In this document: positions 1 to 11,963 of the stretch, piece after piece
Position numbering within the stretch: position 1 is the stretch's first letter
Layout: each line of letters begins with the position of its first letter
Source of the DNA: Robiginitomaculum sp.
GTDB taxonomy: Bacteria; Pseudomonadota; Alphaproteobacteria; Caulobacterales; Maricaulaceae
Assembly: GCA_021776515.1 (NCBI GenBank)
Contig: JAJFFS010000012.1
Location: forward strand, 106,487-170,486
DNA length: 64,000 nucleotides
Direction of reading: 5' to 3'
The notes under the pieces: model-generated
The model's database searches: none
What the model was told of the DNA's origin: nothing
The model's input: only the letters and a program-made list of their open reading frames with translations
Made by a program: the position numbers and the translations under genes

Positions 1-1241
1 AGATTGTCTATCTTTGTCTGCAAACCTGCGTTTTGTGACTTTTGCTCTTCGCTAAGCTGTTCTTTTTCAGCGCGAAGGCATTTGATCAATTTGTCTTTCT
101 CTTCCCCCAATGTGTTTAATTCAGCAACCTTTGTCTTATGTTGCGTAGCCAAACGCCGTTGAACGTCACGATCAGCAGCGCGTTTAGTGGCGAGCTGGTT
201 TTGCTCATCGCGGGCCTTGGTCAGTTCCTCAATCTGTGTTGCACGCTCAGTGGCGAGCTGGTTTTGCTCATCGCGGGCTTTAGTCAGCTCCTCAATCTGT
301 GCAGCGCGTTTAGTGGCGAGCTGGTTTTGCTCATCGCGGGCCTTGGTCAGCTCCTCAATCTGTGCAGCGCGTTTAGTGGCGAGCTGGTTTTGCTCATCGC
401 GGGCCTTGGTCAGTTCCTCAATCTGTGTGGCACGCTCAGTGGCGAACTGGTTTTGCTCATCGCGGGCCTTGGTCAGTTCCTCAATCTGTGTTGCACGCTC
501 AGTGGCGAACTGGTTTTGCTCATCGCGGGCTTTGGTCAGGGTTTCATTTTTGTTTGACCAGTCTTCAACTTGAACCAGCGCTTCTGATTTCCAGTTGCGG
601 GCGTAGACAACCAAGGCAATTGCCGAATTACGCTCCCCGAATTGTGACACAGGTACAAAATGGTGTGCAGAAAGAAAGTCATCCAACGCAGGTTTTCCTG
701 TGCTCTCACCATTCTTTACATACGATTCATCTAAAACCGTCCTTGCCAGCACAACATCCAAACCGTCTATAAAGTTCTTTGCGCCTTTCAAAATTCCCAG
801 TGCGGGAAGGCAATCGATATGGACCCAGTTGATGCGCTCAGCATATTTATACTTTTCGTTTTGCTTTAAAAAAGTGGCCAACGTTATGGAGGGGCGCTCA
901 TCTTGCGATACTGTCGCTAAATTTTGCCAGATTGGAGTAAGTGTATCCGGGCAGACGAGGCCGCTTTCATTGGAGTTGCTGGCATTATAGAACGCAGCAT
1001 CACCATCTTGAGGCCCAATCAAGGCATTGTGAACCAACCAGTTTTCGCGTTCTTGAATTGCCCCGCCTAATTTTTCAGCACGCACCTCATCTGCCTCAAT
1101 GAATGCGGCAAGTGGAAAGTTATCTAAACCAAGATTTGCAAGATCGAAATTTTGCCCGGCACCAATTTGCATTAAACCAGAGATCGGGAAGAGTTGCTGA
1201 AGCAGCTCTATCAGGGGGAGGTTTGGATTATATCTCAGCAT
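1..1241 (-). CDS. FkbM-like methyltransferase with C-terminal coiled coil (3' end beyond window)
   Basis: This open frame is absent from the ORF track because it runs off the left edge. I translated it from the minus strand, starting at the ATG at 1241; the frame stays open for about 413 codons. Residues 1-215 look like an FkbM-type SAM-dependent methyltransferase: GLMQIGAGQN resembles the VDIGAGxG SAM loop, followed by AAFIEAD, a WLVHNALIGPQDG segment and WVHIDCLPALGILKGA. This fold usually methylates sugars or glycans. From about residue 235 the protein becomes a charged coiled coil made of near-identical 21-residue units (EELTKARDEQNQLATERA), i.e. three heptads each. The next gene upstream on the same strand (1336-3444) is another coiled-coil protein, 94 bases away, so the two probably form one transcription unit. 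The substrate is unknown; a surface glycan or glycoprotein role is inferred from family context only. Confidence 0.72.
   Translation of the reverse strand, partial: MLRYNPNLPLIELLQQLFPISGLMQIGAGQNFDLANLGLDNFPLAAFIEADEVRAEKLGGAIQERENWLVHNALIGPQDGDAAFYNASNSNESGLVCPDTLTPIWQNLATVSQDERPSITLATFLKQNEKYKYAERINWVHIDCLPALGILKGAKNFIDGLDVVLARTVLDESYVKNGESTGKPALDDFLSAHHFVPVSQFGERNSAIALVVYARNWKSEALVQVEDWSNKNETLTKARDEQNQFATERATQIEELTKARDEQNQFATERATQIEELTKARDEQNQLATKRAAQIEELTKARDEQNQLATKRAAQIEELTKARDEQNQLATERATQIEELTKARDEQNQLATKRAADRDVQRRLATQHKTKVAELNTLGEEKDKLIKCLRAEKEQLSEEQKSQNAGLQTKIDN
190..540 (-). repeat. 63-bp coding tandem repeat (about 5.6 units)
   Basis: Units begin at 190, 253, 316, 379, 442 and 505 with GCGA(G/A)CTGGTTTTGCTC. 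The period is exactly 63 bases, or 21 codons. Differences between copies are few and mostly conservative (E/K, F/L), which points to recent duplication or gene conversion. Because 21 residues equal three heptads, changes in copy number would lengthen the coiled coil without breaking its register. Confidence 0.93.
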
Positions 1242-1335
1242 TTTACATTATTCACACTTCCATTTTCCAAACGACACCAGAAGCAACCTGACTGATAACG
1301 TTTATATTCAATCTTGTTGTAAAACACCTTATCCA

Positions 1336-3444
1336 TCACTTTTTTACAAATCTCACCTTTCGAACACGCACCGCTAGGTCTCGAAAATCATCGGAGCCCT
1401 GGGTGGAGGGGGAGATTGTTTCAGGAAAGTTGAATGACAGTGTAAGTCCATCTTTGATGTCTGCAGATGTGATGTGAGCCTGGCTCGTAATCAAAAGAGG
1501 GTAATGAAGATTTGTTTTATCCAGTAGAGTTGCCAAAGGAGTCCATTGACTTGCATATGTTTTATTCAATAATTTTGCCAAGGGTGCCCACTGACTTGCA
1601 AGTGCTCCTTGCCACTTAAGGCTCAATGGTTTGTCGTTAAGGGAAATTTTCATTCCCCGCACAATATCTGGTGACATAGCGTCAACCACATCGACTTCCA
1701 GCCGATAATCCCCTTCGGCAATCTTATCTATGCGCAGTGCGCTTTGCATTTCTGGGCCGGCCCAGCGGCCATCATGCTCCGCATAATGCCAATTATCTCC
1801 ATCTACGAATTGCCGCAGATCAATAATTTTTTCAATTTTTACGTTAGCTTTATCATCTTCGCTATCGGTTTCCTGCTCATCCTCACGCTTTGTCGCCTCC
1901 TGGTATTTTTGGAAATACAGCTCCAGCTCTTCCTGAACCTGGTGCAATTGTAATAACTGTAATTCACTTTCCTGGGCCGTTTCATCAAGCTTGGCCTCAA
2001 GGCCTTTCACTTTCTTGGTATTTGCCTTGTGCTTGCCAACTTCAGCTTCTAATGATTTCAATTGTCCCTTGAATGCACCATTTTCTTTTCCCAGCTGTTC
2101 GCTTTTCTGGGCGGTTTCATCAAGCTTGGCTTCAAGGTCTTTAACTTTCTCGGTATTGGCCTTGTGCTTGCCAACTTCAGCTTCTAATGATTTCAATCGA
2201 CCCTTGAATACATCACTTTCTTTTTCCAGCTGTTCACGCTGCTTGGTCAGAGATCCGATTTTTGCTTGTAGTTCATTTTGAGAGTTTTCATTTTTCTGTA
2301 GTTTTATAAAAGTTTGTTCCAACTCTTCTTGAACTTGATGAAGCTGAAGAGTGAGCAGTTTGCCTTCCTCTTTTTGTTCATCCCCCTCGGCTATACTTTT
2401 CTCTAATTCCTGCTTTAGTTTTTCGTTTTTTTGCTTTTGTTCTTTCAGTGTCTTTTCAAGTTCATCAATCTGTTTCTTAGACATTTTTGATGCCTCTTCA
2501 GATTCTTTTTGCATTTGGTCGATTTGAGAGAGCAGTAAGTCGTTTTCCTTTTTTTGCTCTTCACGTTCCGTTTCTAGCTGGGATAGTTCATTTTCTTTTT
2601 GTTCGCCCTGCTTCTTCAATTCATTGAAATGTTCCCAGGATTTAAGCGCAAGCTCTAGTGGATCCAGCTTTTCACAATCATCCTGAGGTCCAAGAATATT
2701 GTGCCGGGAACTTGCACCAGAATCGCTAGTTTCGGATTGGATATAGTCCCCCGGTAAGTCGGCGGCGCTTTCTAATTCCTGATAAAGCGCGTAGGCATCA
2801 ACCGCATCTTCGACAAGCATCGGTGCAATTAAGTCGTGGATCGGGTCTCTTTTTGGAATAGCCACTGCATTATTTTTTATATCGATCAGGTCAGCGCCCA
2901 ACTGATCCCGGCTATAGTTGACAAAAAGGCTGGCGTCTCTGGAAAGAAAGTCAGAATTAAGCAGAATGCACCGCTCTTTATTTTTAAAATAAAACCGAAT
3001 TAACTCGGCATTGATTTTCTGCCAATCAGAAAGCGCCTGCTCCACATTTTTTGTGGAAAGCTCTCCCTCATTAGCCATTTCCGCTACAGCTTGATCGGGG
3101 GATGAATAGACCAGAACAAATTTGATTTGTGGATCAAAATCCCGCCAGTGTTCAAGCATATAAACCAGATTTGGATCAGCCCAGCCCCAATCAGACTCGG
3201 ATAAATTAGCCAGCATTAAATCTGTTGACAGTGCTTGCCAAACCTTGCCAGGCTCCACCTGATCAATCGAGACTAATTCATTCTTATCAAGCCCATAGGC
3301 GGAACATATACCGCTACTTATGTCTGTTGGTGAATAGTCTTCCCTTTTTGAGGGTTTGGCGCGTGCAAGCCCCGCTTTGATTAAAAAATCATAGGCTAGC
3401 TGATACCCTGAATTTTGCACCCCGCATACTAGAACAACTGCCAC
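1336..3444 (-). CDS. Sulfotransferase-like N-terminus fused to a long coiled coil; function unknown
   Basis: A 702-residue protein with a GTG start at 3444, preceded by AAAGG. Residues 1-200 begin MAVVLVCGVQNSGYQLAYDFL, which resembles the P-loop-like PAPS-binding opening of sulfotransferase-family proteins but without a clean GxxxSGTS signature. Residues about 250-540 form an uninterrupted Lys/Glu/Gln-rich coiled coil containing two copies of a ~45-residue module (KSLEAEVGKHKANT...LEAKLDETAQ). Residues about 550-700 form a separate C-terminal domain (WHYAEHDGRWAGPE, GDYRLEVDVVDAM) that looks like a beta-rich module; I do not recognise it with certainty. It lies upstream of the FkbM-like gene in the same direction. 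A role in decorating or organising a surface glycan is a guess from the pairing. Confidence 0.65.
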   Translation of the reverse strand: MAVVLVCGVQNSGYQLAYDFLIKAGLARAKPSKREDYSPTDISSGICSAYGLDKNELVSIDQVEPGKVWQALSTDLMLANLSESDWGWADPNLVYMLEHWRDFDPQIKFVLVYSSPDQAVAEMANEGELSTKNVEQALSDWQKINAELIRFYFKNKERCILLNSDFLSRDASLFVNYSRDQLGADLIDIKNNAVAIPKRDPIHDLIAPMLVEDAVDAYALYQELESAADLPGDYIQSETSDSGASSRHNILGPQDDCEKLDPLELALKSWEHFNELKKQGEQKENELSQLETEREEQKKENDLLLSQIDQMQKESEEASKMSKKQIDELEKTLKEQKQKNEKLKQELEKSIAEGDEQKEEGKLLTLQLHQVQEELEQTFIKLQKNENSQNELQAKIGSLTKQREQLEKESDVFKGRLKSLEAEVGKHKANTEKVKDLEAKLDETAQKSEQLGKENGAFKGQLKSLEAEVGKHKANTKKVKGLEAKLDETAQESELQLLQLHQVQEELELYFQKYQEATKREDEQETDSEDDKANVKIEKIIDLRQFVDGDNWHYAEHDGRWAGPEMQSALRIDKIAEGDYRLEVDVVDAMSPDIVRGMKISLNDKPLSLKWQGALASQWAPLAKLLNKTYASQWTPLATLLDKTNLHYPLLITSQAHITSADIKDGLTLSFNFPETISPSTQGSDDFRDLAVRVRKVRFVKK
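1975..2215 (-). repeat. ~135-bp coding duplication in the coiled-coil gene
   Basis: The segment encoding KSLEAEVGKHKANT and LEAKLDETAQ occurs twice in direct orientation, offset by about 45 codons. On the plus strand TTTCATCAAGCTTGGC and CCTTGTGCTTGCCAACTTC recur. It is an in-frame internal duplication of coiled-coil coding sequence. Confidence 0.8.
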
Positions 3445-3882: not shown

Positions 3883-3920
3883 AAAAAGCCCCCCGATGTT
3901 TCCACCGAGGGGCTATTTTT
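3883..3920 (-). terminator. Rho-independent terminator of tracrRNA (bidirectional-looking)
   Basis: A perfect 12-bp stem (two G-U pairs) is formed by 3887-3898 and 3903-3914, capped on the minus strand by a GAAA tetraloop. On the minus strand it is followed by a T-run (3883-3887). On the plus strand it is followed by ATTTTTT, so it could also insulate cas9 from plus-strand readthrough. Confidence 0.88.
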
Positions 3921-3958
3921 TGGACTTGTTCTTTGCAGAACGAATTCCTTGTTAACGG

Positions 3959-3987
3959 AAAGCCCACGTTTTCTGATCAGCTATAAT
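3959..3987 (+). promoter_or_regulatory. Possible cas9 promoter embedded in the anti-repeat
   Basis: On the plus strand the anti-repeat ends in a consensus TATAAT (3982-3987). Seventeen bases upstream is AAAGCC, a poor -35 in the position where the array repeats have TTGGCC. It lies about 80 bases before the cas9 ATG. The -10 is good and the -35 weak, so this is tentative. Confidence 0.35.
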
Positions 3988-3996
3988 CAGTATTCC

Positions 3997-4025
3997 TGTA
4001 TACCCCTATTATTTCTGCGGTTCAA
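3997..4025 (-). promoter_or_regulatory. Predicted sigma-70-type promoter of tracrRNA
   Basis: On the minus strand TTGAAC (4025-4020) and TATACA (4002-3997) are separated by exactly 17 bases. The predicted start, about 7 bases after the -10, falls at the beginning of the anti-repeat, as expected for a tracrRNA. Confidence 0.68.
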
Positions 4026-4066: not shown

Positions 4067-7000
4067 ATGAAATGGCGACTTGGGTTGGATGTGGGGACAA
4101 ATTCACTGGGCTGGGTGGTTTATGAAATTATTGATGGACACGATGGTCACGGTAATTTTTTAGGAAAACCAAGGCGTTTGGTCGAAAGCGGCGTGCGGAT
4201 ATTCTCGGATAGCCGTTCAAAAAAAGCAAAAACAAGATATGAATCTCTGGCAATTCCCCGACGAGGTGCACGCGGGGCACGGCGCAATCGTGACCGCTAT
4301 TTGCGCCGCCGGGCCGAATTTATGGATCGGCTGGTTGAATATGGCCTGATGCCAGAAGATAAAACCGCCCGCAAAGCGCTTGAAACGCTAGACCCGTGGG
4401 CATTGCGGGTGCGCGGGCTGGACGAAGAGCTTTCCTTGCATGAACTGGGCCGGGCCTTGTTTCATTTGCAACAAAGGCGGGGGTTTAAATCCAACCGCAA
4501 AACCGACAAGGGCGATAAGGACACGGGCGCGATCAAGGATGCGACCAACAAACTTATTGCTGATATGAAGAAACAAAGTGCCCGAACCGTAGGTGAATTT
4601 CTGGCCCGCGACCGCGTGGATGACCCGAAAATGGCGGCGGTTAAACAGGTGCGCGCCCGCCCGACATCGGTCAAAAACAAAAACACTTATGACTTTTATC
4701 CCACCCGTAAAATGATCGAAGAGGAATTTAATGCGCTATGGGACAAACAAAAAGAATTTCATGGCGATGCGTTAAGCCAAAAGGCAAAAAAGGCACTGGG
4801 TGATAGGGATACCGGCACCTTGTTTTTTCAACGGCCGTTAAAGCCGCAACCGGTGGGCAAATGCACCCTCGACCCGGATCAGCAACGCGCACCCAAAGCC
4901 CTGCCCTCGGTGCAGGCTTTGCGTATTTATCAGGAGGTCAACCATTTGCGCCTGCGTCTGCCGGGGCAGGCAGAGCGCCCGCTTACCGTGGAGGAACGCA
5001 ATAAAATTGCCGATAAACTCCTGAGTGTTGGTAAATTGAGCTTTGATTCCATGCGCCATCTCATCAAACATCCAGGGGTGATTTTTAGCCACGAAAGCAA
5101 AAAACGCAAACATCTCGATGGCGACAAGACCGCCGCGATATTGGCACAAAAACCCAGCGCCAAGGTCAGCGGCCGCTGGGGGCCGCAATGGCGCGATCTG
5201 CCACGCGAGCAACAAGATGCCATTGTCGAGATATTGATAGGCATGGAACCGGCGTATTCCAACGATAAACCCAATCCGGCGTTTGAACCTTTGGCACAAG
5301 GCATTGCGGCGACATTGGATATGCCGGTTGAACGGGCCAAAAAACTGCTTTCTGCCAATGATGAAAAAGCCATCATTGATTGGCTGGTACAAGATTTTGG
5401 CTTTGACGAAACCCGTGCTGCCAGCATTGCCAATGTCTCTTTACCAGACGGGCATGGGGGTTTGGGCCGCGCCGTCACCGCAAAAGTGCTGCCATGGTTG
5501 ATGAGCGATGCGCAAAATATCGACGATCCGGACCCGAAAAAAGAGGCATTGATCTCGGCCCCCTTCACCTATGACCAATCGGTGCGTTTGGGCGGCTATG
5601 ACAGCCATTCTTCTTTTGATGATGGCGAGGTGTTTGATCAATTGCCCTATTATGGCGAGGTTTTAGGGCGTTCGGTGGCTTTTGGTACGGGCGAGCCCGA
5701 TGACATCATCGAAAAACGCATTGGCAAATTGGCCAACCCGACCGTGCATGTGGCGATGAACCAGATCAGAAAAGTCGTCAATTCATTGGCCAAACGATAC
5801 GGCACGCCAACGGAAATTGTGGTGGAGATTGCCCGTGACTTGCCCCTGTCGGCGAAGGGCAAAAAAGATCTGGAAAAACTGCAAAGCGACAATCAAAAAA
5901 CCAATGAGCGCCGCGCCAAGGAGTTGGAAAATCACAACCAGACCAACACCTATGATAACCGCATGCGTATGCGCCTGTGGGAGGAGCTAAACGAGAATGA
6001 GCCGCACAATCGCTGTTGCGTCTATACCGGCGAGCAAATTGGCATAGAGCGTTTGTTTTCTGCGGAAGTCGAGATCGAACATATCTTGCCGCGTTCAAAA
6101 ACACTGGACGACAGCTTTTCCAACAAAACCCTCTCTATGCGTGAGGCCAATCGCCTGAAAAAACAGGACACGCCATTTGAAGCCTTTGGACTGGATCAGC
6201 ACGCACCTAAATACAAGTGGGACGCCATATCCCAACGCGCCGATAATTTACCCAATAACAAATCATGGCGTTTTGGCCCCGACGCTATGGAGCGTTATGA
6301 GGATGAGGAAAAAGGCTTTCTGGCGCGTCAACTTGGCGACACCCGCTATATTGCCCGCCTCACCCGCGAATATATGAGCAAAATGGCGGGGCGCGGCCAT
6401 GTCTGGGTGGTTACGGGGCAGATGACCTCTGATTTGCGCCATGCCTGGGGGTTAAACTCGGTATTGGCCGGACATAACCGCATGGAGTCCGAGGCCGAAG
6501 ACGTCAAGAAAAACCGCAACGACCACCGCCACCACGCGCTGGACGCGGTGGTGATTGGTTTGATTGACCGCGCATTATTGCAAAAAGTTGCCACTGCTGC
6601 CGGGCGGGCAGAACAGCGCTTTAGTCGCAATTGGGCCAAAGACTGGCCAGATCCATGGACCGGCTTTCGTGATGATGTGATCCGTTCCATGGAGAAAATC
6701 ACGATTTCCCACAAGGCCGATCACGGGGTGGAGGGTGAACTGCACGAAGGTACCAATTATGGCGTTGTCGCCGATCCGGTAACCGGCGAGCCACGTTTGG
6801 CGTCCCGCAAGGCACTAACCGCCCTGACCGAGCCGGAAATGACCCGTATTGGTGATCTGAAAATTCGCGCCGAATTGGAAGAAAGAATGCGCGACATAGA
6901 CGATCAGGGCCTGCCTAACAAAGACCGCACCAAAGAAATTATCGCCATGCTGGCCGAATATGGCAAGGAGACTAGCGTGCGCCGGGTGCGGGTGCACAAG

Positions 7001-7468
7001 GTGCAGGCCGATTATGAAACCATCCGCCATAATGGCCATCAAAAAGCGGTTATCCCCGGCGAGAATTATTGCGTTGATCTGGTGCAAACCACCAATGGAA
7101 AATGGCACGGGGTCGGGGTCACCCGCTTTGCCGCCAACCGACAAAAACGCCTTGGGGCGACAACGCCGTTATGGAAACAACAATACCCGGACGCACAACA
7201 CATTATGCGGGTGCGCAAGGGCGACCTTCTGATGTTGGAAAAAGATGGCCGCGAGCAGGTGATGGTTGTTGTACAATTGCATTCAAGTGCTAATCGGTTT
7301 TTCTTGGTGGGCCATACCGAAGCAGGCACGTTGAATGATCGCCATAAAGATAAGGATGATTTATTTAGGTGGGATATGGCCTCTTTTAGCAAACTCAAAG
7401 ACCGCAAGGCTCGTCTTGTCTATGTCGACCCGGCGGGCAAAGTGCACGATCCGGGGCCGCCATCATGA
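4067..7468 (+). CDS. cas9: CRISPR-associated endonuclease Cas9, type II-C
   Basis: RNA-guided DNA endonuclease, here 1133 residues, within the compact II-C range. The ORF track starts at a TTG (4046), but AGGAGG at 4055-4060 sits 6 bases before the ATG at 4067, giving MKWRLGLDVGTNSLGW, so I use 4067. RuvC-I has D8 in LGLDVGTNS; an Arg-rich bridge helix spans about residues 65-85 (RRGARGARRNRDRYLRRR); RuvC-II has E587 in IVVEIARD; the HNH domain has H672 in EIEHILPRS; RuvC-III has H823 and D826 in HHALDAVVIG. All catalytic positions are therefore intact. The C-terminal ~250 residues should be the PAM-interacting region; the PAM cannot be read from sequence. It overlaps cas1 by 4 bases (ATGA), and no csn2 or cas4 follows, which fits II-C. 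Confidence 0.97.
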   Translation: MKWRLGLDVGTNSLGWVVYEIIDGHDGHGNFLGKPRRLVESGVRIFSDSRSKKAKTRYESLAIPRRGARGARRNRDRYLRRRAEFMDRLVEYGLMPEDKTARKALETLDPWALRVRGLDEELSLHELGRALFHLQQRRGFKSNRKTDKGDKDTGAIKDATNKLIADMKKQSARTVGEFLARDRVDDPKMAAVKQVRARPTSVKNKNTYDFYPTRKMIEEEFNALWDKQKEFHGDALSQKAKKALGDRDTGTLFFQRPLKPQPVGKCTLDPDQQRAPKALPSVQALRIYQEVNHLRLRLPGQAERPLTVEERNKIADKLLSVGKLSFDSMRHLIKHPGVIFSHESKKRKHLDGDKTAAILAQKPSAKVSGRWGPQWRDLPREQQDAIVEILIGMEPAYSNDKPNPAFEPLAQGIAATLDMPVERAKKLLSANDEKAIIDWLVQDFGFDETRAASIANVSLPDGHGGLGRAVTAKVLPWLMSDAQNIDDPDPKKEALISAPFTYDQSVRLGGYDSHSSFDDGEVFDQLPYYGEVLGRSVAFGTGEPDDIIEKRIGKLANPTVHVAMNQIRKVVNSLAKRYGTPTEIVVEIARDLPLSAKGKKDLEKLQSDNQKTNERRAKELENHNQTNTYDNRMRMRLWEELNENEPHNRCCVYTGEQIGIERLFSAEVEIEHILPRSKTLDDSFSNKTLSMREANRLKKQDTPFEAFGLDQHAPKYKWDAISQRADNLPNNKSWRFGPDAMERYEDEEKGFLARQLGDTRYIARLTREYMSKMAGRGHVWVVTGQMTSDLRHAWGLNSVLAGHNRMESEAEDVKKNRNDHRHHALDAVVIGLIDRALLQKVATAAGRAEQRFSRNWAKDWPDPWTGFRDDVIRSMEKITISHKADHGVEGELHEGTNYGVVADPVTGEPRLASRKALTALTEPEMTRIGDLKIRAELEERMRDIDDQGLPNKDRTKEIIAMLAEYGKETSVRRVRVHKVQADYETIRHNGHQKAVIPGENYCVDLVQTTNGKWHGVGVTRFAANRQKRLGATTPLWKQQYPDAQHIMRVRKGDLLMLEKDGREQVMVVVQLHSSANRFFLVGHTEAGTLNDRHKDKDDLFRWDMASFSKLKDRKARLVYVDPAGKVHDPGPPS

Positions 7469-8373
7469 TCGGGCGGTTTGTGGACATTGTCGATGACGGG
7501 GTGCATTTATCCGTCACGCGGGGGTTTTTGAAAGTCAGCAAAGCCCACGAAGAAATTGGCCGTGTGGCGCTGGACGATATTGCCGCTTTGATCATCCACG
7601 CCCATGGGGCAACGTTTAGCGCCAATCTGGTCACCCGGCTGTCTGCGCGCGGCGCGCCGATTGTCATGTGCGCCGCCAATCACACGCCCATTGCCTTTGT
7701 TTTGCCAATGGATGGGCATTATGAGCAGGGCGTACGTATGGGCGCGCAAGCCAAGGCTACACCGCGCAAATGCGATGCCTTGTGGCGCGACCTCATCAAG
7801 GCAAAAATTATTGCGCAAGGCGATGTTCTTGATGCGTGCGGCTTGCCCGGGCAAGGGGTTCGCCATTTGCACCGGGCGGTCAAGGCGGGCGACCCGGCCA
7901 ATGTGGAGGCGCAAGCGGCGCGGCGGTATTGGTCGTTAATGTTGGGCAAGGGTTTTCGTCGGGATCGGGACATTGGCGGCGCCAATGCCTTTTTAAACTA
8001 TGGCTATACGGTGTTGCGGGCCGCCACGGCGCGCTCCATCCTTGGGGCTGGTTTGCACCCTTCGCTTTCGCTCCATCATATTAGTCGTGGTGCGGCCCTG
8101 CGGCTGGCCGATGATTTGATGGAACCGTTTCGCCCTTATGTTGATTTGGTGGTGCGCCGCCTTGGGCCCAAAGAAGGTGCCGAACTGGACCGCGAAGCCA
8201 AGGCGGCTTTGGCTGCCATTACTCTTTTTGACCTGACCGGGCCCAAGGGTGCCTCGCCGATACAAACCTGTCTGGATCGTTTGGCGGTTTCGTTGGCACA
8301 GGTATTTTTAGGCGAAATAAAAAAACTGGAACTGCCCGGGCCGCCTTTGCCATTGGGGGTCGCGGCATCATGA
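7465..8373 (+). CDS. cas1: CRISPR-associated endonuclease Cas1
   Basis: Spacer-integration nuclease of 302 residues, type II-type Cas1. The start codon overlaps the cas9 stop (ATGA), indicating translational coupling. Visible features include the N-terminal beta domain (MIGRFVDIVDDGVHLSVTRGFLKV), the active-site Glu in NVEAQAARRYW and the conserved His in LGAGLHPSLSLHH, followed by LADDLMEPFRPYVD carrying the expected acidic ligand. With Cas2 it should form the integrase that adds ~30-bp spacers to the adjacent array. No sign of damage. Confidence 0.97.
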   Translation: MIGRFVDIVDDGVHLSVTRGFLKVSKAHEEIGRVALDDIAALIIHAHGATFSANLVTRLSARGAPIVMCAANHTPIAFVLPMDGHYEQGVRMGAQAKATPRKCDALWRDLIKAKIIAQGDVLDACGLPGQGVRHLHRAVKAGDPANVEAQAARRYWSLMLGKGFRRDRDIGGANAFLNYGYTVLRAATARSILGAGLHPSLSLHHISRGAALRLADDLMEPFRPYVDLVVRRLGPKEGAELDREAKAALAAITLFDLTGPKGASPIQTCLDRLAVSLAQVFLGEIKKLELPGPPLPLGVAAS

Positions 8374-8702
8374 AAACATTAAGTGGGTATAGAATTATGT
8401 GGATGATCGTTTTTTTTGATTTACCTGTGGTGGACCCGGTCGAACGCAAACAGGCCAGCAAGTTTCGATTGTTTTTAAAAGACCTTGGTTTTGAAATGGC
8501 GCAGTTTTCCGTTTATATTCGCCACACCCCCGGCAAGGATGCGGTAGAGGCTTATCGACGAAAAATTGAATCGGCCTTGCCCTCCCAAGGCAAGGTTGAT
8601 ATTTTACAATTTACCGACAAGCAGTATGAGAATATTGTCAGCTTTCGAGGAACAAAGCGTGATTCACCGAATCAAAATCCGGAACAATTATTGCTTTTTT
8701 AG
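8370..8702 (+). CDS. cas2: CRISPR-associated protein Cas2
   Basis: A 110-residue Cas2, partner of Cas1 in the integrase complex. The start overlaps the cas1 stop by 4 bases (ATGA). The N-terminal strand with the conserved Asp (MIVFFDLPV) and the following helix (RKQASKFRLFLKDLGFEMAQFSVY) are typical. It is the last gene of the plus-strand cas operon and stops 72 bases before the first CRISPR repeat. Confidence 0.96.
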   Translation: MKTLSGYRIMWMIVFFDLPVVDPVERKQASKFRLFLKDLGFEMAQFSVYIRHTPGKDAVEAYRRKIESALPSQGKVDILQFTDKQYENIVSFRGTKRDSPNQNPEQLLLF

Positions 8703-8730: not shown

Positions 8731-8762
8731 AACAACAAAAAAACCCTTGTTTTCAAGGGTTT
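8731..8762 (-). terminator. Terminator between cas2 and the CRISPR array, oriented for minus-strand array transcripts
   Basis: AAACCCTTG (8741-8749) and CAAGGGTTT (8754-8762) form a 9-bp stem with a 4-base loop. Read on the minus strand the stem runs straight into TTTTGTTGTT, a proper U-tract. On the plus strand it is followed by GATTGCAGG, with no U-tract. It would therefore end RNA arriving leftwards from the array. Confidence 0.75.
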
Positions 8763-8774
8763 GATTGCAGGTCT

Positions 8775-9666
8775 GTTATAGCTGATTAGAAAACGTGGGC
8801 CAACCGCAACTCCGGCGTCTCGGACAAGTTCTTCAATCGCGTTATAGCTGATTAGAAAACGTGGGCCAACCGCAACCTCTCTTTTACAGACAGTAAACGC
8901 CTTTCCGTTATAGCTGATTAGAAAACGTGGGCCAACCGCAACGACCGCCAAGTCATCGAACGCGACAAGTAGTTATAGCTGATTAGAAAACGTGGGCCAA
9001 CCGCAACCATCTAGTACTCCAGATAGTAATCCAATATCGTTATAGCTGATTAGAAAACGTGGGCCAACCGCAACTCATCTCCGGCGATGCCACTGAATTG
9101 GGGGTTATAGCTGATTAGAAAACGTGGGCCAACCGCAACACAATGCCGCCAATGGTGCACTGGCCATTGGTTATAGCTGATTAGAAAACGTGGGCCAACC
9201 GCAACGGCTCCGTTTCCATCGAGGCAGACAACGCCGTTATAGCTGATTAGAAAACGTGGGCCAACCGCAACTGGCGGAAGCTTGTGGAGCAGATGCACCC
9301 TGTTATAGCTGATTAGAAAACGTGGGCCAACCGCAACTAGAGTTAGGTTAGAGGCGTTAAGACATCTGTTATAGCTGATTAGAAAACGTGGGCCAACCGC
9401 AACACCGAAGATATAGCTAAGAAATTCGGAGAGGTTATAGCTGATTAGAAAACGTGGGCCAACCGCAACGACAGTGACTTCCTATCTTGGTCGTCGTCCG
9501 TTATAGCTGATTAGAAAACGTGGGCCAACCGCAACGACAAGGCTGCTGAATTGTGGGCTGATTGGGTTATAGCTGATTAGAAAACGTGGGCCAACCGCAA
9601 CTTCATCCGGGCCTTGCTCATAGCTTGTATGTTATAGCTGATTAGAAAACGTAGCCCAACCGCAAC
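8775..9666 (-). CRISPR. Type II-C CRISPR array: 14 repeats of 36 bp, 13 spacers of 29-31 bp
   Basis: Repeats start at 8775, 8841, 8907, 8972, 9039, 9104, 9170, 9236, 9302, 9368, 9434, 9500, 9566 and 9631. On the plus strand each begins GTTATAGCTGATTAG and ends GGGCCAACCGCAAC. Thirteen copies are identical; only the last (9631-9666) differs, with GTAGCCC for GTGGGCC. All spacers are unique. The minus strand is assigned as the crRNA strand because (a) it gives the correct duplex with the predicted tracrRNA; (b) a U-tract terminator lies at the left end; (c) every repeat carries TTGGCC-17 bp-TATAAC in that direction. No AT-rich leader is obvious on the right, where truncated SDR coding sequence begins at once. 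Confidence 0.97.
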
Positions 9667-10453
9667 AAAAACGCTGTGCGGTATTCCCCAGGAAGACAAT
9701 GTGCACATTCACCAAATTCAGCTGGATCTCACTGATAAAGTTTCAATTGAAAATGCAGTTGCCAGTATTCTGGATGCCGAAGGCAGGATCGATGTCCTTG
9801 TCAATAATGCGGGTATTGTCAGAGGCAGTAATATTGAAGAAACCGACATGGATGCCGTTCGGGAAATGTTTGAAACCAACTTTTTCGGTACTGCCGAACT
9901 CATAAAGAACGTCGTACCAGGCATGCGCCAGCGCCGATCTGGGACCATTGTTAATGTAACCTCTATCGCCGGGCGGCTGGTTTCTGTGAGCGGAGGATAT
10001 TATGCGGCCTCGAAATATGCATTCGAGGCACTATCGGAATCCCTTACCATGCAGTTGGCACCGTTCGGTGTACGGGTGAAAATCATCGAGCCCGGGGCAA
10101 CAACCACATCCATGCTTTCAAATACGCAAAAGGCAACTCGCCCCGCCAACCCCAACTCCCCATACAAAACTCTGGCACGTCGTTTCGGGGCATATTTTGA
10201 TGCCCAGCTTAATCGTCCCAATGCCACGCCTCCCGATGCCGTAGCACAAGTTATTGAGAGGGCCATTGCCACCGATGACCCTAAATTGCGCTATGTTGTC
10301 GGCGATGATTCCGAAACCTTGCTGGCAGGGCGCCAAAGCATCACGGATGAGGATGCGGTGGCTTTCTGCCAGATCGAAGACGACGAAGAATACTATGACG
10401 CGATGCAAAAACTATATGGCCGTGACCTTTTCAGACGTCAAAACCTTTCTTGA
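9667..10453 (+). pseudogene. SDR-family oxidoreductase truncated at its 5' end by the CRISPR array
   Basis: The frame carries most of a short-chain dehydrogenase/reductase: DVLVNNAGIV (NNAG motif), TIVNVTSIAG with the catalytic Ser region, and YYAASKYAFEAL (catalytic YxxxK). Missing is the N-terminal Rossmann segment with the TGxxxGxG cofactor-binding motif, about 35 residues in this family. In the same frame, coding-like sequence extends upstream of the listed GTG start (TLCGIPQEDN) right up to the last repeat, and the next in-frame stop lies inside that repeat. The gene was therefore interrupted where the array now ends. The GTG at 9701 has an AGGAAG nearby, but any product would lack the NAD(P)-binding loop. 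Confidence 0.75.
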
Positions 10454-10654
10454 TGTGGCTAGGCTCAGGACCTATTCATCCATCCAAACAGAATTGAGAA
10501 GTAATATTGCGGGTCGAAAGACCAAACTTGAAGCGCACCCAAGGGCGTGACTGCGCCCCGGCGATCGTTCGCCGCCCCGTCGGAGGCGCTTCTTCGCACC
10601 GCGAGACAAGAAAATTAGTGTCCTCAAGCAGCAAAGCGGTAGGGCAGCTAAAAA
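10454..10654. other. Intergenic spacer, no feature recognised
   Basis: About 200 bases between the SDR remnant and the tRNA. It has short GC-rich inverted segments (GCGATCGTTCGCCGC) and no supported gene. Confidence 0.4.
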
Positions 10655-10741
10655 TGGTGCGGGCGGGGGGAATCGAACCCCCACGATCTTTCGATCCCAG
10701 GATTTTAAGTCCTGTGCGTCTACCAATTCCGCCACGCCCGC
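10655..10741 (-). tRNA. tRNA-Leu (anticodon UAA)
   Basis: The minus strand reads GCGGGCG at the 5' end, pairing with CGCCCGC plus discriminator A and an encoded CCA at 10655-10657. The anticodon stem CAGGA/TCCTG encloses CTTAAAA, giving anticodon TAA. A long variable arm and GGTTCGATTCC T-loop are present, as expected for a leucine tRNA of 87 nt. A T-rich run (ATTTTTAG) follows. Confidence 0.96.
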
Positions 10742-11567: not shown

Positions 11568-11963
11568 ATGAGTGATTTTATAGATGATGCCATTGAAAAT
11601 GCAGGTATAACTCTTAGTGCAGAAAAAACTGCGCCGGGCGTATTTCGCTGCACAATGGTCAGCCATTATGGTGAGATGGTACGTGATATTACTGTTAAGG
11701 AGGGCGTAGACGAGACCCCGGGTGTGGCCAATTTACTTTATCATTTCACCCTGCAAACCCAGAGCGTTGATATTTGTGATGATCTGGAAGATTGGGCCGA
11801 TGAATATAGTTATGATGCCTCTAATGAGGCCATTAAAGCCAAATACGAGCAATATTGCCGGGACGCCAAAGACCTGCGCGCCCTATTGGGCAATGATGCT
11901 TTTGAAAATCTGATGGGCGGGCTGGCTATTTCTCAAGCGATTGGTAATGCACGCCCCAGATGA
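11568..11963 (+). CDS. Hypothetical protein
   Basis: A 131-residue acidic soluble protein that I do not recognise. It has no signal peptide or membrane segment. A GAGGG lies 12 bases before the ATG, and it follows sfsA by 33 bases in the same direction, so it is probably co-transcribed. It contains one compact segment with Cys (CDDLEDWADEY, EQYCRDAKDLRALLG). Confidence 0.7.
   Translation: MSDFIDDAIENAGITLSAEKTAPGVFRCTMVSHYGEMVRDITVKEGVDETPGVANLLYHFTLQTQSVDICDDLEDWADEYSYDASNEAIKAKYEQYCRDAKDLRALLGNDAFENLMGGLAISQAIGNARPR

Follow-up and report, generated by a model that had tools for sequence, protein, structure and literature searches.

The CRISPR locus of Robiginitomaculum sp. raises the question of how guide RNAs are made from an array that appears to be read against its own cas operon and that abuts the body of another gene at the end where its transcription would begin. 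From the sequence of the 64-kb stretch of DNA analysed here (the window), we propose that each repeat of this type II-C locus very probably carries, at its 3′ end in crRNA sense, a housekeeping (RpoD-type) promoter from which guide RNAs would be made one by one.

A compact type II-C locus and its crRNA strand

The window contains a compact type II-C locus in which cas9, cas1 and cas2 lie contiguously on the plus strand, without csn2 or cas4, and a 14-repeat array lies beyond them. Its components are as follows.

3887–3990, minus strand: tracrRNA gene upstream of cas9, with the anti-repeat (3986–3962), a nexus hairpin and a strong terminator (3914–3887)
3997–4025, minus strand: candidate tracrRNA promoter TTGAAC-17-TATACA, found by eye; the predicted start is at about 3990, just before the anti-repeat
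4067–7468, plus strand: cas9, 1133 aa, ATG start behind AGGAGG (TIGR01865, E 2.9e-188)
7465–8373, plus strand: cas1, type II (NMENI) family (TIGR03639, E 1.6e-59)
8370–8702, plus strand: cas2 (TIGR01573, E 1.6e-16)
8775–9666, minus strand (crRNA sense): CRISPR array, 14 repeats of 36 bp and 13 spacers of 29–31 nt

The interval from cas2 to the array holds no further open reading frame of at least 90 aa. The size of Cas9 fits the II-C clade, as do its closest named plasmid-borne relatives, all alphaproteobacterial (Azospirillum thermophilum, 42%; Nitrobacter hamburgensis, 38%; Novosphingobium, 37%). Upstream of the CRISPR locus the window is repetitive (138–3444, with a 30-bp unit present six times at 195–539) and carries a 702-aa coiled-coil-like open reading frame on the minus strand (1336–3444).

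A tracrRNA gene with anti-repeat and terminator close to the cas genes is characteristic of type II-C. An Rfam scan returned tRNA only, with no match to a CRISPR or tracrRNA family; in the anti-repeat, 24 of 25 bases match the 3′ two thirds of the repeat. Joined by a loop, repeat and tracrRNA fold at −79.8 kcal/mol (z = −12.5) into the usual Cas9 guide scaffold of lower stem, internal loop, long upper stem, nexus and terminator, which identifies the minus strand, opposite to cas, as the crRNA strand. This orientation is the rule for II-C systems (PMC6737040; PMC3936727), and the claim of an earlier note on this DNA that the array is read against the cas operon is supported by two terminators on the minus strand, by the predicted tracrRNA gene and by the duplex of repeat and anti-repeat. 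None of the 13 spacers matched the phage and plasmid collections searched, which thus gave no protospacers from which to read a PAM. The degenerate oldest repeat (9631–9666) marks the cas-distal, transcription-upstream end of the array, as is typical of such arrays, and growth presumably takes place at the opposite end. In a relative from the same genus (L095), one isolated repeat copy lies at 11607–11641, about 2.4 kb past its array.

A promoter match within the repeat

The putative promoter elements, their spacing and their strand can be read directly from the repeats, which include the following.

8775–8780, minus strand: TATAAC −10 element of the last (cas2-proximal) repeat; these are the final six bases in each of the 14 repeats
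8798–8803, minus strand: TTGGCC, resembling a −35 element, in the last repeat and 17 bp ahead of its −10; 13 of the 14 repeats have it
9631–9666, minus strand: first-transcribed ('extra', oldest) repeat, with two substitutions

The layout TTGGCC-N17-TATAAC on the minus strand, proposed earlier for every repeat, was confirmed by a pattern search that found 13 copies, all in the array, against 0.03 expected by shuffling; the word 'every' has to give way, as the oldest repeat reads TTGGGC, with its −10 TATAAC intact. The 14 copies are one sequence and were therefore counted once for estimates of chance. Dinucleotide-shuffled versions of the repeat contain an equally good E. coli-type promoter (9/12, spacing 16–18, either strand) in 2.3% of cases, or in 0.8% with a spacing of 17 only, and at a rate of about 2% a single-repeat match of the E. 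coli type is by itself only moderately surprising. With a gap of 14, the site also agrees at every position with the Caulobacter RpoD consensus TTGNCNS-N14-GCTANAWC (as quoted in PMC8144410), for which the window has 13 matches, all in the array. A match of this kind is far rarer than one of the E. coli type: with gaps of N10..14, about 1.2 Mb of related loci contain just five that lie outside arrays. A standard sigma-70 scan, which requires T as the sixth −10 base, did not detect the repeats. With an apparent −10 element closing every repeat in crRNA sense, this array would belong with those that have repeat-internal promoters.

Conservation of the putative −10 element across the class

Relatives, with their flanks, came from Cas9 matches to whole genomes within the order, class and phylum of the window; this whole-genome search replaced a Cas9-based scan for related loci that had given two distant loci only. 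It provided 62 usable arrays with 36-nt repeats, among them 51 distinct repeats from the window's class. In crRNA sense, every one of the 51 has T31 and A32; position 36 is occupied by T (43 repeats) or C (8), position 29 by G in 48, and positions 33–35 are much freer. This pattern of conserved first, second and last base around a free middle is the signature of a −10 element, and the hexamer 31–36 is the top TATAAT match of all offsets on both strands. The −35 part of the earlier reading is less secure than the −10 part: TTG stands at positions 8–10 in only 19 of the 51 repeats, so that the hexamer is not conserved among relatives, and the region is altered in 14 of the 51 first repeats. At the predicted start position, the composition of 1,256 spacers showed no purine preference.

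Some repeats of the class end in TAGGCT, a poor −10, with a terminator behind the array in none of eight, and such relatives may not work by repeat promoters. Repeats with a poor −10 form a GCCGTGG...GGTAGGCT group of II-C loci (L097, L099, L100, L112, L113, L118, L124, L150 and L162), whose arrays may be transcribed differently.

The first repeats provide a second record of what is retained. Thirty-four of the 51 are mutated, and in none has T31, A32 or base 36 changed. Substitutions per six-base bin from the 5′ end number 88, 35, 13, 5, 4 and 1, so that positions 1–6 take 88 of the total of 146. Part of this gradient is accounted for by outside-in erosion, which by itself favours retention of the inner end; with edge runs excluded, the last six bases still take only 1 of the 20 substitutions at positions 13–36 (p = 0.024). 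In other II-C arrays, too, mutations of the first repeat were reported in its 5′ part, and a promoter role was put forward as one reason why its decay is limited (PMC12080349). More-eroded repeats upstream of an intact first repeat were convincing only in L108, with a 3′ end that is still TTTAGCTT.

These data also bear on whether the GCTAnnnY repeat end is instead a docking or cutting signal for Cas1–Cas2 integration, its likeness to a −10 incidental, which we consider unlikely. New spacers in II-C systems enter at the last repeat (PMC12080349), the 3′ end of which is the leader–repeat junction, and the near invariance of G29 and TA in the class repeats would suit such a signal. Yet TAnnnY is the −10 pattern and a full RpoD-like site is met here, and the first repeat, unused for integration in the cited model, still has T31, A32 and base 36 intact in all 51 arrays. 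Were integration what maintained the motif, the oldest repeat would be free to lose it; its retention makes integration no easy explanation, and the comparative case against it is moderate. Promoter and integration functions could coexist in the repeat end.

The upstream flank

The flank from which minus-strand transcription would enter is the body of an SDR-family oxidoreductase gene that the array abuts directly, with no intergenic leader. About 43 codons are missing from the start of this gene (9667–10453), and the array stops exactly at its broken 5′ side; 18 genomes of the genus contain no close orthologue, the best match having 35% identity. A tRNA-Leu gene (taa; 10655–10741, minus strand) lies about 1 kb from the array and is possibly the insertion site of a CRISPR-carrying segment.

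It is quite unlikely that the minus-strand array is transcribed as one long pre-crRNA from a promoter beyond 9666, with the repeat-end motif kept for some other reason. The tracrRNA and the terminator past the last repeat are equally consistent with such a transcript, and read-through from the tRNA-Leu gene could supply it. The flank is nonetheless coding sequence without a leader, a promoter scan of the minus strand from 9667 to 10600 found no promoter-like site, and first repeats keep their −10 though eroded elsewhere. Promoters within the repeats would need no leader promoter upstream.

Anti-repeats and the repeat end

Here the anti-repeat and the 3′ end of the repeat do pair, as they should if the motif were kept solely for tracrRNA pairing. 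Were pairing the cause, anti-repeats would keep the motif too, but TAnnnY is found in the anti-repeats of only 14 of the 51 loci, as against the repeats of 49 of the same 51, in which count the two misses are script artefacts (one of register, one of orientation); in whole clades the anti-repeats have diverged from about position 26–29 onwards. Pairing alone is thus largely refuted and very improbable, and the comparative case against it is clear. The earlier reading of TATAAC as a −10 element finds support on three sides, in T31, A32 and Y36 in 51 of 51 class repeats, in the loss of the motif from anti-repeats and in its retention in eroded first repeats.

The plus strand of the anti-repeat itself reads TATAAT (3981–3986), a better −10 than the repeat's TATAAC, facing the cas9 ATG at 4067. 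Within this genus it might drive cas9 from a site that overlaps the tracrRNA gene. We rejected such a role for the relatives in general, TAnnnY being kept in only the 14 anti-repeats counted above and lost in most Neisseria-type loci.

A terminator at the growing end

Between the array and cas2 lies a further minus-strand element.

8741–8762, minus strand: intrinsic terminator AAACCCTTG AAAA CAAGGGTTT TTTTGTT

On the minus strand this site reads AAACCCTTGAAAACAAGGGTTTTTTTGTT and lies 12 nt beyond the last repeat. A crRNA-strand terminator occurs no more than 110 nt past the last repeat in 25 of 60 distinct arrays (1.6 expected by shuffling), as against 3 with one on the other strand, although related arrays are not independent and such counts overstate the evidence. 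All start 1–21 nt from the repeat, most often 11. Terminators before the first repeat, reported for some II-C arrays, were found in only 4 of 50. The terminator accompanies 19 of 29 arrays with TTG in the −35 region of the repeat, against none of eight in the GCCGTGG...GGTAGGCT group. A terminator with such strand bias just past the array was less to be expected than promoters in the repeats, and we found no description of a terminator at the growing end of an array in the open papers searched.

Transcription of the array on the plus strand with cas, from the cas2 side, has the simplicity of a co-directional operon and no listed plus-strand terminator between cas2 and the array in its favour, but is barely credible given a tracrRNA whose terminator, correct lower stem, bulge and upper stem fit a minus-strand crRNA only, the general opposition of II-C arrays to cas (PMC6737040) and the 25-to-3 bias of terminators towards the crRNA strand.

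A proposed mechanism

With repeat-internal promoters, RNA polymerase would bind each repeat and start about 6–8 nt into the next spacer. Start sites and promoter strength are here predicted from the elements, as are end processing and insulation of the cas operon. The transcript would span the remaining 22–25 nt of the spacer and the next repeat, its crRNA 5′ end needing no cutting; the tracrRNA made from upstream of cas9 would pair with that downstream repeat, leaving RNase III or other nucleases to trim the 3′ side only. The oldest repeat (9631–9666) would have only to remain a promoter, and its tracrRNA-pairing half could decay. At the other end, the newest repeat (8775–8810) would fire towards cas2, where the terminator 12 nt on would halt its transcripts before an antisense run into cas2 and so spare the convergent cas operon.

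We give about even chances to a broader proposal, that the II-C repeat of this class is a host-tuned RpoD promoter and that many arrays add a terminator at a near-fixed distance (usually 11–12 nt), so that the duplicated promoter never fires into the convergent cas operon. If true, the growing end of the array would permanently include the terminator. More generally, the analysis carries a mechanism measured in a few species over to a class as a whole, using a test that tells promoter function apart from tracrRNA pairing and, with less sharpness, from the integration of spacers. It allows prediction of where guides begin and how long they are in many Cas9 systems of the class, and it points to an insulating terminator at the growing end.

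Comparison with known systems

The earlier note had taken the layout to be known from Neisseria and Campylobacter II-C systems, which is correct, but it is not special to them: by 2025 repeat-internal promoters are described as a general property of II-C systems. Experiments in Campylobacter jejuni demonstrated a start site within each spacer (Dugar et al. 2013, PMC3656092), and in-repeat promoters were measured in Neisseria meningitidis according to the accounts of Zhang et al. 2013 in PMC5006608 and PMC7038990. They were inferred for Clostridium cellulolyticum H10 (PMC7038990) and Flavobacterium (PMC8092290, PMC10309648) and have been doubted for Riemerella.

The C. jejuni locus shares with ours an operon of cas9, cas1 and cas2 only, a crRNA strand opposite to cas, and a −10 in the 3′ part of the repeat with a start in each spacer, there measured and here predicted. 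It differs in that our −10 is TATAAC within GCTATAAC, with a TTGGCC −35 at 17 bp and a match to the alphaproteobacterial RpoD consensus, and our tracrRNA lies upstream of cas9. N. meningitidis, so far as those accounts describe it, likewise has a promoter at the repeat 3′ end, a crRNA strand opposite to cas and a tracrRNA that pairs with the downstream repeat; a Neisseria-type locus among our relatives (L142) differs in a repeat that ends in GCTACAAT and lacks TTG at 8–10. The Azospirillum repeat likewise terminates in GCTACAAT. C. cellulolyticum H10, from another phylum, has an extended −10-like repeat end and crRNAs with 23–26 nt of spacer (PMC7038990), its promoter inferred as ours is. The EHCas9 locus, closest to Alphaproteobacteria, has the same layout with an incomplete array, and its authors suggest repeat promoters as one option (PMC10281378). 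Repeat-internal promoters were thus already accepted for II-C; what our analysis adds is a sequence test spanning the class, the agreement with an RpoD consensus of the host type and a terminator biased to the crRNA strand.
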